34,924 nt of DNA from an uncultured Spirochaetales bacterium. Its GTDB lineage: Bacteria > Spirochaetota > Spirochaetia > Treponematales > Treponemataceae. Made by a program: the position numbers and the translations under genes. How positions within the stretch are numbered: the first letter of the stretch is position 1; every line of letters starts with the position of its first letter. The notes under the pieces were generated by a model, which saw only the letters and a list, made by a program, of their open reading frames with translations, ran no database searches and was not told the DNA's origin. Shown one piece after another: positions 29,752 to 34,924 of the stretch. The stretch is from positions 1 through 34,924 of the forward strand of contig CAMGSV010000002.1 of assembly GCA_946061495.1 (NCBI GenBank), read 5' to 3'.

Positions 29752-29794
29752 TTGACAAAACATGAGGGGGGGGGGGAGAATGATAGTATATATT
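29752..29794 (+). promoter_or_regulatory. Candidate phase-variable promoter region with G11 tract
   Basis: TTGACA (29752-29757), G11 (29766-29776), TGATAGTAT extended -10-like (29781-29789), then AAAGGAG RBS. Confidence 0.6.
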
Positions 29795-29813
29795 CAGATA
29801 CAAAGGAGTGAAT

Positions 29814-30851
29814 ATGAAACTTATGAAGAAGGTGCTTGTTCTGGCACTGGTGGCTGCCACCATCCTGATGGTAGCCTGTGACAACGGAAATGGCGGCGGT
29901 GGAACCGGCAGTAGTGGAGCTGACGGAAATGGCGGCGGCACGAATACTGGTGGTGATACATTCGTTCCACCAACCCTGCCCAAAAACAAGGGAGACGATC
30001 CCTTTGCGGGACTGAAGACCTTGACTACAGACAGCGACACTGTACGTTACCAGGTGGACACCACAAAGAAGGTGCTCACAGAGGAGCGTTCTGAGGACGA
30101 TGGTAAAAATTGGAGCACGAGTGCGGAGTACAGCTACAGCTATGACGGCACAGCAAACCCACCCACCATCACCGGACGGATTGAGGCTCAGTACGAGGAA
30201 GGAACGAGATTCACCCTGGCTGAGGCGCTGGCCGCTTATGAACCCGAATTTAAGGCAGATTTTACCCAAGGATTTGGGGAGATGTTTGACCAGTTGAGTG
30301 GCCTAGACACAGCTCAGAAGGAGGCTGCACTTGAAGGGCTAAAAGAGCAATTCGGTCTCGACCTCACTGTGGCGGATCTTGCAGCAGACAAGAAGGCTGC
30401 CACCTTTGAAAAGGTTTGGAAATCAGAGACTGTTCAGGATATGCTCAAAGAGGGGCGGGATACACTGAAAAAGATGTTTTCCATGACACCCACCTATGCC
30501 GTGACGTTTACCGACAAAATCGAAACCACCGCCAAGCTTGCAGTGAAAGGACAGTACGACAGCACGCTTCCATGGCATGAGCAGACAGCCGGCACATTCT
30601 ACGGCAGGAGCAGCGACGATACTGCAAACGCTTCCTTTGGCCTAGGATTTGGTTCTGTCGAAACAAAAGATGGGTCTTATAAGGTCACGAAGATCACCGA
30701 AGGCACCATAACCTGTAAAGACAGAGATGGTACCTCTAAGTCCTTCTCCTATACCACCACCGGCACTGACAAGGACATGGTTGTCACTATAACTGTGGAC
30801 TCTGGCAAAACTATTGAATGCACCTGGCAGCCTAGCACCACAATCGGTTAG
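29814..30851 (+). CDS. Putative surface lipoprotein of unknown function
   Basis: AAAGGAG RBS; MKLMKKVLVLALVAATILMVAC lipobox; Gly/Asn-rich linker GNGGGGTGSSGADGNGGGTNTGG. Confidence 0.85.
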   Translation: MKLMKKVLVLALVAATILMVACDNGNGGGGTGSSGADGNGGGTNTGGDTFVPPTLPKNKGDDPFAGLKTLTTDSDTVRYQVDTTKKVLTEERSEDDGKNWSTSAEYSYSYDGTANPPTITGRIEAQYEEGTRFTLAEALAAYEPEFKADFTQGFGEMFDQLSGLDTAQKEAALEGLKEQFGLDLTVADLAADKKAATFEKVWKSETVQDMLKEGRDTLKKMFSMTPTYAVTFTDKIETTAKLAVKGQYDSTLPWHEQTAGTFYGRSSDDTANASFGLGFGSVETKDGSYKVTKITEGTITCKDRDGTSKSFSYTTTGTDKDMVVTITVDSGKTIECTWQPSTTIG

Positions 30852-30889
30852 TAGTAGTAAAACAACCGAGTAATAGCTATACAATCCAG

Positions 30890-30920
30890 TCCCCCGGAGC
30901 TTGTTTCGGGGGATTTTTTT
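30890..30920 (+). terminator. Rho-independent terminator of the lipoprotein gene
   Basis: CCCCCG GAGCTTGTTT CGGGGG ATTTTTTT. Confidence 0.85.
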
Positions 30921-30990
30921 GTGGTGGATTCTTGCCGGACTCAGGGTGGCAACCTTTCTTTTTTACCTAAATCCTGCTATACTTACTTCC

Positions 30991-32892
30991 ATGAAAAAGC
31001 TTATCCTTAGTGTCGTCGTATCACTGTTTGCTGCAGCTTCCCTTGCAGCCCAAACCCATACCGCAGTTCCCTTGGACGACCCGATTTATACGGTCATCGA
31101 GCAGGCTCAGCTCAAGGGGCTGTGTCCTGTCTTGAGTGAGGCAAAACCCTATTCCCAGCATAAAATACAATCCATCATCAACACCATCCTGTCCACAGAG
31201 ACGGACCTCCCCTGGGCAGCCCTCACTGCCGCAGAGCGAGCCATCTTAAACCAGACCCTAGATTCCTTCCGAAAGGAGGAGGGATGGAGTTGGCTCAAGG
31301 GGGAAGCATTCCACCAGCACACCACAAAGTCAGGCATCCCCATGACCTTCAACGCAGGAGTATCCTGGCAGTCAGTGTTCTCAGGCTCCGCCCAAGCTGA
31401 AAACGGAGACCTGACAGGGGGAACAGACAACTGGGGCATTGTCTCTCTCAGCGGAGACATGGGCCCCGCCTTCTCCTGGCGTTTCTCCGCAGGCGGCGGA
31501 CTCATGCGTGCCCCCAGAGACTACCTGGGAAAAGCCTACACCTTTTATAAGGGTTTTGAAGACAAGGATATAGATGAGGCCAGAAAAGACCAGAACAAAA
31601 TTTACGATGTGATGACAGAGCCGCTTTCCTTCTTCCCCTACACCTACAGAAAGAACTGGGACGGCTCCATATTCAAGGGAGACAGCCTTGGCTCCAGCGG
31701 CTTCTTCGACTGGCCCCAGGGAATCTCCTTCGGCTACCAGTTGAACGGAGAGGCCGCCGTCTCCTTCTTGGACGATGCCATCTCTGTGCGGGCAGGACGC
31801 CTGATCCGAGAGTGGGGGGCGGGAACCAATGGCAGCAGCCTCGTGCTCAATGCCGCCGCCCGTCCCTTCTTCGGCGTGGAGGCAAACTTCGAGCCATTCA
31901 GCTGGCTCAGGATGGCAACCCTCACTGGTGTCCTGGAGTATTACAATGCAGAGGGCATCAGCGTCAGCTCCGCAACCTTCCAAAACCTCTTCTCCATCGG
32001 CATGGCTGAGGCAAACTACAAGAACTTTGTCCATTTCAGTCTCGGCTCCAGTGTCGTCTATCCAAAGCGGTTCGAGCTGGGCTACGCCTTCCCCCTGCTG
32101 AGCCGTTTCTTCTACCAGAACAATGTAGGAGACTTTGACAATCTGACCATGTTCGCCACCTTAATCGTGCAGTATCCAGGCATCGGAAAGCTCTGGGGCT
32201 CCGCCTATGTTGACGAGATGGATTTGACCAGCCCAGAATTCTTCAATCAGGACCGCAACATGTATGCCCTCCAAGCTGGTGCCGCTGCCACGCTCCCCAT
32301 TCCCGGACTGGCTTTCAGCAATTTCACCTTCCAGTACACCAAGCTAGAGCCCTACGTCTACACCCACCAGCTGGTAAAGACCCCTTGGTACGAAGTATGG
32401 ATGGAGGAGCCCTATATGAACAATGGTGTCTCTTTGGGCTACTACCTACCGCCCAACTCTGACGAGCTGAAAGTGCGGTTTGACTCTTCCTTTATAGGGG
32501 GGGGGGTATTAAATTTCCACCTTCAGTATCAGATGGTACGCCATGGTGCTGAATATGGAAGCCGGGCGGTGGATGGCAGTAGCCTCAATTCTCAGTTGGA
32601 CACCACAGGCCGCAACGACAAGGAAGGCAAGCCAGAGCTGTGGAAGCACTTCCTCCACGATGGTGCCTACCAGTGGCAGCATATCGTCAAGATTGGCGGC
32701 GACTACAATCTGGAAGGTTTCAACATCCCCGTCAAGCTGTTCTGCGACTTGGGCCTGGTCTACTCCTACTTCACCGACATCGACGGCAAGCCCAACTCCG
32801 GACAGCACCAGCCCATCCACAGAATCAACACCTCGGAATACCCCACCCAGACCCGGTTCATCGGAACGGTGGGATTCAAGCTTTACCCATAG
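30991..32892 (+). CDS. Putative outer-membrane beta-barrel (Wzi-like N-terminal pattern), paralogue 1, with G10 tract
   Basis: Signal MKKLILSVVVSLFAAASLAAQ; TAVPLDDPIYTVIEQAQLKGLCP...KPYSQHKI; amphipathic strands; ends RFIGTVGFKLYP. Confidence 0.8.
   Translation: MKKLILSVVVSLFAAASLAAQTHTAVPLDDPIYTVIEQAQLKGLCPVLSEAKPYSQHKIQSIINTILSTETDLPWAALTAAERAILNQTLDSFRKEEGWSWLKGEAFHQHTTKSGIPMTFNAGVSWQSVFSGSAQAENGDLTGGTDNWGIVSLSGDMGPAFSWRFSAGGGLMRAPRDYLGKAYTFYKGFEDKDIDEARKDQNKIYDVMTEPLSFFPYTYRKNWDGSIFKGDSLGSSGFFDWPQGISFGYQLNGEAAVSFLDDAISVRAGRLIREWGAGTNGSSLVLNAAARPFFGVEANFEPFSWLRMATLTGVLEYYNAEGISVSSATFQNLFSIGMAEANYKNFVHFSLGSSVVYPKRFELGYAFPLLSRFFYQNNVGDFDNLTMFATLIVQYPGIGKLWGSAYVDEMDLTSPEFFNQDRNMYALQAGAAATLPIPGLAFSNFTFQYTKLEPYVYTHQLVKTPWYEVWMEEPYMNNGVSLGYYLPPNSDELKVRFDSSFIGGGVLNFHLQYQMVRHGAEYGSRAVDGSSLNSQLDTTGRNDKEGKPELWKHFLHDGAYQWQHIVKIGGDYNLEGFNIPVKLFCDLGLVYSYFTDIDGKPNSGQHQPIHRINTSEYPTQTRFIGTVGFKLYP
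32497..32506 (+). repeat. G10 homopolymer inside the outer-membrane protein ORF
   Basis: TTTATA GGGGGGGGGG TATTAAA, read in frame as F-I-G-G-G-V-L. Confidence 0.97.
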
Positions 32893-32902
32893 GACACCCA
32901 CG

Positions 32903-32931
32903 GGGATTCCGGCTTACCCGGCTGGAATCCC
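32903..32931 (+). terminator. Intergenic hairpin between the two OMP genes (no U-run)
   Basis: GGGATTCC (32903-32910) / GGAATCCC (32924-32931). Confidence 0.5.
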
Positions 32932-33081
32932 AACCCCTTCCCTCCCGCAAAGGCAAGCCCACAGCTATCTTCACAACGACAATTTCCTAGCAAAAGTCCT
33001 CTTCATCATAGCTTTCCAAGTGCTATGGAGACCATATATTCCAACCAAATTCCATCACCCTTAATCTATTTGGAGAAATAT

Positions 33082-34773
33082 ATGAACAGACTACTTTTCA
33101 GATTCCTTTTCCTTGCATCCATGTACCTGCCGCTTTCGGCCCAAACCCACAACTCGGTTCCCTTAGACGACCCGATTTACTTCCTGCTAGAAACAGCCTC
33201 CATCAAGGGCTATTGCACCCTACCAGCAATCCGTCCCTATTCCCAGAAGACCATCCTCAAGGCGCTGGAACAGATTGCAGCCAGTGATGATGCAAGTCCA
33301 CTGGAGCGGGACAGTGCCCAGGCTGCCATCCTGCGCCTGCAGCCTCCATCCCAGGAAGCCTGGTATAAAACGGGCCGGCTCAACTTCAACTACGATACAG
33401 CCAGCGGACTGAAAAACAGGCTGGGACTGGGGGTAAACCTTTCTGCCCACATCGGCTCCAACTTCACCAAGCCTTCTTTCACGTGGGAGGCTATTTTGGA
33501 CGCTTGGGTAAACGGAGACTTCACCAAGTACTTCTCCTACAAGCTGCTGATGGCAGCGGGTCTCTCCCACTACGACTTCGACGCATACCCGCCATACACC
33601 TTCTCTCAGCCGTACGATGGATTCCAATTCCTGCTGAATCCCATGGGAGACTTTACCGCAAAGTCCCAGGATGGCCACATCGGCATGAAAATCCAGCCGG
33701 AACTATCCTTTGGCTTTGGAGATGGCATGCTGAGCATCAACTTCTCCCGAATCAGGAGGGACTGGCAGCTGGCTCAGGGAGTCGGCGGATTGCTGCTGGC
33801 AGGTTCGGCCCGCCCCTTCATGGCTCTGGACATCTACTTTTCTCCCACTAAATGGCTGCAACTGGCCTTTCTCAACGGCGTACTGGAATACAACCGAGCC
33901 GACTCAGACACCATCCGTCCCTTTGACTTCCAAAACAGCTTCACTGCCATGAAGGCTCAATTCGGCCTGGGAAAATATGTGGATGCAGCCATCAACTCTG
34001 CGGTGGTATTTACAAAGCGATTCGAGATGGGTTACTTCAATCCGTTGATGGTTCCCCTTTTCTATCAAAACATGGTGGGTGACTTTGACAATCTGTATTT
34101 TGGTGGGACTCTCGTTGTCAAGCTCCCGCCCTGGGGACGAATCTTTGCAGATATTCTTCTCAGCGAGATTCGTTCCCTGGACATTGTATACACACCGCAG
34201 AATGTCTATGCCTGGCAGGCGGGCGGACAACTGGCAATTCCAGGCAGCCCAACAACCATCACACTGCAATACACCAAGATTGAGCCATTCATGTACACCC
34301 ATTATGGCACGATCACCCCTTGGACTGGTGATACGGAAATGAACACCAGCCTTGTAAACCACGGCGAGGGCATAGGCTCCAATCTACCGCCCAATACAGA
34401 CGAGCTCAAGCTTTCCGCCACCGGGATGCCCCTTTTGTTCCTGGAGTGGAACGCCTCCTACCGCATGGTTCGCCACGGCATCACACCACCGGGGAGCACC
34501 TACGAGCCAACCGAATACAGCGATATGCCCGACAGAAAGCACTTCCTCCACGATGGGGTCTACCAGTGGCAGCACATCTTCACGGTGGGATGCAGCTACA
34601 CTATGCAGCAGCTCCATATTCCCATAAACATTTTCTGTGATTTGGGTTTAGTGTATTCCTACCACACCGACACAACAGATGCCTCATCCTCTGTCATCCA
34701 CAGAATTAACACCTCGGAGTATCCAAACAGGCTTTCTGTCTTGGGAAAAATCGGAGTGAAGGTCTTTCCCTAG
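33082..34773 (+). CDS. Putative outer-membrane beta-barrel, paralogue 2
   Basis: RBS GGAGA; signal MNRLLFRFLFLASMYLPLSAQ; NSVPLDDPIYFLLETASIKGYC...RPYSQKTI; C-terminus IFCDLGLVYSYHTD...IHRINTSEYPNRLSVLGKIGVKVFP parallels paralogue 1. Confidence 0.8.
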   Translation: MNRLLFRFLFLASMYLPLSAQTHNSVPLDDPIYFLLETASIKGYCTLPAIRPYSQKTILKALEQIAASDDASPLERDSAQAAILRLQPPSQEAWYKTGRLNFNYDTASGLKNRLGLGVNLSAHIGSNFTKPSFTWEAILDAWVNGDFTKYFSYKLLMAAGLSHYDFDAYPPYTFSQPYDGFQFLLNPMGDFTAKSQDGHIGMKIQPELSFGFGDGMLSINFSRIRRDWQLAQGVGGLLLAGSARPFMALDIYFSPTKWLQLAFLNGVLEYNRADSDTIRPFDFQNSFTAMKAQFGLGKYVDAAINSAVVFTKRFEMGYFNPLMVPLFYQNMVGDFDNLYFGGTLVVKLPPWGRIFADILLSEIRSLDIVYTPQNVYAWQAGGQLAIPGSPTTITLQYTKIEPFMYTHYGTITPWTGDTEMNTSLVNHGEGIGSNLPPNTDELKLSATGMPLLFLEWNASYRMVRHGITPPGSTYEPTEYSDMPDRKHFLHDGVYQWQHIFTVGCSYTMQQLHIPINIFCDLGLVYSYHTDTTDASSSVIHRINTSEYPNRLSVLGKIGVKVFP

Positions 34774-34802
34774 CATGGAGAATTCTATACTATGTCACAA
34801 TG

Positions 34803-34842
34803 GGTGCAAGCTCCAGGGGCCATTTTCCCCGAGGCTTGCACC
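34803..34842 (+). other. Long stem-loop (terminator or 5'-leader structure)
   Basis: GGTGCAAGC (34803-34811) / GCTTGCACC (34834-34842) with inner GGGG/CCCC; no U-run; AAAGGAG RBS four nt downstream. Confidence 0.6.
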
Positions 34843-34858
34843 GAGCAAAGGAGCCGTC

Positions 34859-34903
34859 ATGAAGTCTAAAATAATCCCCGCAAGAATTTGCCCCCCCCCA
34901 TGA
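34859..34903 (+). other. Short ORF start with strong RBS, terminated just after a C9 tract (possible OFF state of a downstream gene)
   Basis: AAAGGAG (34847-34853) then ATG at 34859: MKSKIIPARICPPP*; C9 at 34891-34899. A C8 version stays open to the window end. Confidence 0.4.
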
Positions 34904-34924
34904 ATACAATTTAATTATATATAA

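Follow-up and report, generated by a model that had tools for sequence, protein, structure and literature searches.

Candidate phase-variable poly-G and poly-C tracts at a surface-protein locus of an uncultured spirochaete and a spacer-tract promoter class in its family

We analysed a stretch of 34,924 nucleotides, hereafter the window, from an uncultured Spirochaetales bacterium of the Treponemataceae, comprising the whole of contig C2 of a 2.44 Mb metagenome-assembled genome (MAG, G000) in 278 contigs. Its last 5.1 kb hold three long homopolymers, G11, G10 and C9, located in the promoter region of a lipoprotein gene, within an outer-membrane protein (OMP) gene and probably upstream of a further OMP gene, respectively. 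The end of the window makes a good candidate for a contingency locus, with its three tracts in three geometries, whereas the more interesting result is a family-wide class of promoters that carry such a tract between their -35 and -10 elements. This class suggests, at the level of sequence comparison, that spacer-tract switches are far commoner in this spirochaete family than the open-access literature describes.

We observed the tracts themselves, the geometry and conservation of their promoters, the reading frames around them and differences in tract length between species. In the explanation that we consider probable, the end of the contig would hold three contingency switches that act independently of one another on surface genes, via slipped-strand mispairing. 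Such slippage would change the expression of proteins that are presumably exposed on the cell surface, and might thereby play a role in interactions with host or phage.

Long G/C tracts and the promoter of the lipoprotein gene

The initial annotation had placed G11 at 29766-29776, G10 at 32497-32506 and C9 at 34891-34899 and had noted nothing comparable elsewhere in the window. Our analysis confirmed this, with the longest remaining G/C runs having a length of 6 (at 1748, 12586, 14168, 25979 and 31814). We then counted runs in 1,625,124 bp of the MAG, a sample that contains all runs of at least 9 retrieved by a whole-genome search. Runs of length 6, 7 and 8 numbered 457, 39 and 2, followed by 8, 7, 4, 1 and 3 runs of length 9, 10, 11, 12 and 13, respectively (23 in total, about one per 100 kb of the genome). 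Markov simulations yielded more runs of 7 and 8 than observed (order 1: 327 and 104), and the second rise appeared in none of them. Because the counts drop to length 8 and are then followed by 23 longer runs, the G/C runs of 9–13 are a separate class and not the tail of random sequence.

The presence of three of the 23 tracts within 5.1 kb amounts to a modest clustering (P ~0.02 for uniform placement). Six of the 23 lie at most 100 bp from a contig end (P ~1e-5), including C9 at a distance of 25 bp, an excess compatible with mixed tract lengths in the sequenced population or with trouble in assembling homopolymers. The position of several tracts at contig ends, in a genome broken into 278 pieces, could also point to artefacts of sequencing or assembly, such as the poly-G produced by two-colour chemistry. 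We regard this explanation as very improbable, as the tract positions are conserved in independent genomes, the single-contig genome G001 contains many tracts of at least G10, the distance between -35 and -10 is constrained in the tract promoters, and the tract within the OMP gene is in frame with conserved protein sequence.

The features at the lipoprotein gene are as follows, with G005 being one of three congeners (G003, G005 and G008) used for comparison:

29752-29757, plus strand: -35 element TTGACA of the lipoprotein promoter, assigned from the sequence and conserved in G005
29766-29776, plus strand: G11 tract in the -35/-10 spacer, at the equivalent place in G005, belonging to the family-wide promoter class
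29776-29781, plus strand: -10-like element GAGAAT after an 18 bp spacer; TAGAAT in G005, the window copy being without the first T
29814-30851, plus strand: lipoprotein gene, 345 residues, starting MKLMKKVLVLALVAATILMVAC, single copy in the MAG
30888-30920, plus strand: intrinsic terminator in the interval between the lipoprotein gene and the following open reading frame (ORF2)

In a consensus scan, TTGACA-18-GAGAAT was the top promoter of the region (10/12 match) with G11 inside it, and the orthologous lipoprotein promoter of G005 reads TTGACA-AAATATC-G11-TAGAAT with the same spacing of 18 bp. G11 forms the spacer of a predicted sigma-70-type promoter, where the gain or loss of G residues would shift the -35/-10 distance through an optimum near 17 bp and turn lipoprotein transcription up or down, in the manner of TP0126 of Treponema pallidum and porA of Neisseria. 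The encoded lipoprotein matched no Pfam family above cut-off. As its gene is found between ptsI and ORF2 in both this MAG and G005, while G003 and G008 lack it there, it is, judged from gene order, an accessory insert carrying its own putative switch. Since a terminator stands behind the lipoprotein gene, ORF2 need not depend on the G11 promoter.

Spacer-tract promoters across the family

To delineate the class, ten genomes of the genus were searched for TTGACA-N(0-20)-G8+-N(0-12)-TAnnnT, with the reversed pattern as a control. This search yielded 13 distinct sites in 7 of the 10 genomes, and none for the reversed pattern. At the level of the family, a tighter pattern matched in 97 of 197 genomes (~300 matches, summed from the table), compared with 3 matches for its reversed control, and the version with C8 in place of G8 was found in 20 genomes. 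In a sample of the phylum, 11 of 121 genomes matched, four of which are outside the family.

The tract adjoins the -10 hexamer, most commonly TATAAT, in 131 of the 148 listed G promoters. A longer tract tended to come with a shorter lead among 120 distinct G promoters (rho -0.29). Their total spacing had a mean of 17.7 with a standard deviation of 1.98 versus 2.88 after permutation, a value as small being reached in 0 of 20,000 permutations. This compensation between lead and tract is expected if the tract belongs to a working -35/-10 spacer. Readable promoters of the genus precede genes for lipoproteins, a trypsin-like exported protein (protease-like), an outer-membrane protein and chemotaxis-receptor-like proteins, besides a glycan-lipid-transferase-like and one cytoplasmic-type protein, these identities having been assigned by reading rather than by profile search.

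Tract lengths differed between otherwise conserved promoters, with G10 in G008 versus G11 in G005 for the protease-like gene and G9 in G003 versus G10 in this MAG for a small lipoprotein, both within near-identical flanks, and with C9 in this MAG versus C12 in G003 within the conserved flanks of an OMP promoter. These differences bear on the alternative that the tracts are functional without being variable, for instance as a fixed spacer of a weak basal promoter or as a binding site for a regulator. The family spacings peak at 18–19 and are fewer at 17 (18 for the window copy), so that a tract could indeed set a fixed, weak promoter. Nevertheless, the step from G10 to G11 between near-identical orthologous promoters, together with the in vivo length variation reported for most of the T. 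pallidum poly-G tracts tested (PMC7864442), makes this alternative improbable.

The reading of the tracts as random on/off switches builds on this comparison with about 200 relatives. We see an even chance that a standard type of promoter (TTGACA, a lead of 4–10 bp and a G tract adjoining the -10 element), re-created repeatedly, serves the family as a general random switch of surface and sensory genes. Some genomes, such as G110, contain about 20 copies. Such switching would generate combinatorial surface states, with the window locus as one node.

Individual genomes exhibited further variants of this arrangement. Many of the roughly 20 spacer-tract promoters of G110 have the lead AAAATGGC in common, as though duplication had multiplied them. 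A poly-C variant, TTGACATA-C8-10-...-TATAAT, is repeated within the genomes of a few family members (G209, G194, G150, G136 and others), several times in each. In the MAG itself, contig C3 (sequence stretch L041, 2342-2374, minus strand) contains a perfect TTGACA and TATAAT 21 bp apart around a G10. These elements precede a lipoprotein-like start (MKTKLFVVAVM) in a frame that ends after 28 codons, with a 103-residue relative in G003 (L215) being intact.

The coding-region and contig-end tracts

The second tract lies within ORF2:

30991-32892, plus strand: ORF2, outer-membrane beta-barrel protein of 633 residues with a fold closest to Wzi
32497-32506, plus strand: G10 tract in ORF2, in frame, encoding Gly503-Gly505 and the first base of Val506
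33082-34773, plus strand: ORF3, paralogue of ORF2 (33% identity), 563 residues, present in G008 and absent from G003

No Pfam profile matched ORF2, ORF3 or three ORF2 orthologues, and no NCBIfam profile matched ORF2 or ORF3. The AlphaFold2 model of ORF2 consists of a helical amino-terminal part and a large beta-barrel (predicted local distance difference test 81, predicted template-modelling score 0.83). The first Foldseek match of this model was Wzi, the outer-membrane lectin of group 1 capsule assembly (2ynk; E 2.7e-10, template-modelling score 0.71 normalised by Wzi). ORF2 thus resembles Wzi in its predicted barrel fold, but it differs by being longer, by an identity of only 12% and by the lack of a profile match. 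In the model, Gly503-505 form the beta-turn joining the strands 490-502 and 506-519.

The ORF2 frame is open in the MAG and in the orthologues. Past G10, one of the other two frames stops at once and the second after 13 codons, and a change in tract length not divisible by three would therefore end the protein at the tract or 13 codons further on, with the last 127 residues lost. One of the shifted frames runs directly into a stop (TAT TAA), and the signal-peptide tracts of contig C255 and of G005, described below, are followed by TAT TAG.

The third tract lies at the very end of the contig:

34891-34899, plus strand: C9 tract in the probable promoter of the OMP gene that follows, ending 20 bp before the -10 element TATAA(T)
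34920-34924, plus strand: start of the putative -10 element TATAA(T), truncated where the contig stops; contig C169 begins ATATAATAC

In G003, the same flanks enclose a C12 tract, with TATAAT 20 bp downstream and, behind it, the gene for an outer-membrane-type protein of 615 residues. The MAG orthologue of this gene (83%) opens contig C169, and in the alignment with G003 the start of that contig takes up where C2 breaks off. Based on these flanks and on the continuation of C2 in C169, C9 most likely lies at the -35 region of the C169 OMP gene promoter, about 150 bp before the coding region, where, as in Neisseria opc, it would modulate transcription of this gene. Contrary to the initial annotation, which had placed C9 near a start codon, the ATG downstream opens a frame of four codons only (ATG AAT ACA ATT TAA), ruling out a start-codon tract. 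A promoter of the form TTGCCC-12-TACAAT is possible, yet weaker than the one with TATAA(T). Considered as a possible relative of ORF2, the C169 protein was absent from the matches of an ORF2 search in its own genome, and a profile comparison gave a weak match of the amino-terminal part with 18% probability.

Together, these data uphold the annotation's proposal that the locus is a candidate for phase variation at the surface, G11 lying in a promoter and G10 in a coding region, with three genes under separate control. Several points weigh against it. The -10 element of the window (GAGAAT) is without the first T of the class, which may make this copy weak or mark it as decayed. The promoter assignment of C9 draws on two sequences and an inferred contig junction. 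Tract-length differences were seen between species in assembled sequence, leaving variation within the population a candidate property. Finally, an automatic test placed 6 of the 23 tracts at exported-protein genes against a background of 20%, which is not significant, in a test blind to out-of-frame and cut-off genes. Reading the contexts by hand with such genes included, which was not done blind, gave 10 of 23 (P ~0.009). The enrichment near exported-protein genes that the annotation had proposed to test is only moderate.

The G10 tract calls for separate weighing, because the two nearest ORF2 orthologues do not keep it as a homopolymer. It could have arisen by chance from a conserved Gly-Gly-Gly-Val; in larger genes, 5 of 368 glycine triplets are written as G9, versus about 1 expected from codon use. 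On this alternative, only the promoter tracts G11 and C9 switch, and G10 is a neutral run arising from synonymous changes in a Gly-Gly-Gly turn. Consistent with it, the turn is tight in the model, and the same residues are conserved while being encoded by interrupted DNA (GGGGGAGGTG) in G003 and by DNA with G7 only in G008. Conversely, runs of length 8 are nearly absent genome-wide, which makes the neutral persistence of a G10 unlikely, and the TAT TAA in the shifted frame matches the TAT TAG arrangement of the signal-peptide tracts. We consider the neutral alternative possible but rather unlikely, and favour three switches, G10 included.

Searches of a plasmid collection for the locus and of Rfam for the window returned no match.

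Other tracts and known systems

Long tracts were also found in other geometries in the MAG and its relatives. Poly-G followed by TATTA occurs in the signal peptides of lipoproteins in contigs C15 (L044) and C255 (L165, 1990-2180, minus strand) and in G005 (L190, 1400-1600, minus strand). The C15 lipoprotein is in frame, the C255 lipoprotein (G10, then TAT TAG) is out of frame with the stop directly after the tract, and the G005 relative of the latter is out of frame as well. In contig C72 (L049, 995-1004), a G10 lies in the amino-terminal linker of a lipoprotein that is likewise out of frame, its reading frame closing at a TGA immediately behind the tract. A phase-variable repertoire predicts such out-of-frame states among assembled genomes, but they could also represent decayed genes.

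In C140 (L051, 77-88), C161 (L052, 56-68) and G003 (L186, 1501-1511), conserved inverted repeats (GTACAGGAAACTGTAC and others) precede poly-G tracts of 12, 13 and 11 residues, respectively, and stand upstream of promoter-like sequence; an Rfam search of these hairpin-plus-tract repeats gave no match. In G008 (L189, L198) and G007 (L195), G10–G12 occupy the ribosome-binding position, 4–10 bp before the start codons of exported sensor-like proteins that are related to one another (VLKVGYADCDPIFQDE...). A G9 in contig C168 (L053, 2463-2471, minus strand) is in frame within a NusG/RfaH-type-like antiterminator gene and, if variable, would switch a whole operon. Two further tracts resemble ordinary runs, one in an adenine-phosphoribosyltransferase-like frame on C172 and one that belongs to a terminator on C23.

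Work on phase variation in treponemes has centred on the syphilis agent. Should the promoter class be as common in the family as our searches suggest, the mechanism would become open to study in harmless, cultivable relatives, and the cases in syphilis may be one remnant of a strategy shared across the family instead of an adaptation specific to infecting humans. Furthermore, the class provides a simple DNA signature for listing candidate phase-variable genes in any such genome. Homopolymeric tracts have been counted in ten treponeme genomes, with the fewest in the commensal T. ruminis (PMC8049484), and the accessible part of that article contained no promoter analysis. In the open-access literature, to which our coverage was largely confined with most subscription papers lying outside it, we found no account of a spacer-tract promoter class across the family.

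The initial annotation had suggested an undescribed system. The mechanism, however, is phase variation at poly-G/poly-C tracts, which is well established in treponemes and Neisseria and already known from T. pallidum TP0126 and Neisseria porA, and it is the family-wide breadth of the promoter class that appears to be unreported in the open-access literature. In TP0126, an OmpW homologue, poly-G lies between -35 and -10, as does G11, and transcription is best at a total spacing of 17 (PMC7864442, citing earlier work). TP0126 is an OMP gene, whereas the gene here encodes a lipoprotein of an uncultured relative, with a spacing of 18 and a degenerate -10 element. The tprE/G/J and tprL promoters of T. 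pallidum are similar in that poly-G tracts, varying in length within isolates, exert control upstream of putative OMP genes (PMC7864442). In Neisseria meningitidis, porA has poly-G in the spacer and opc has poly-C over the -35 element (as described in PMC7864442). The geometry of porA matches that of G11 and the geometry of opc that proposed for C9, although both belong to another phylum and are other genes than those of the window locus.
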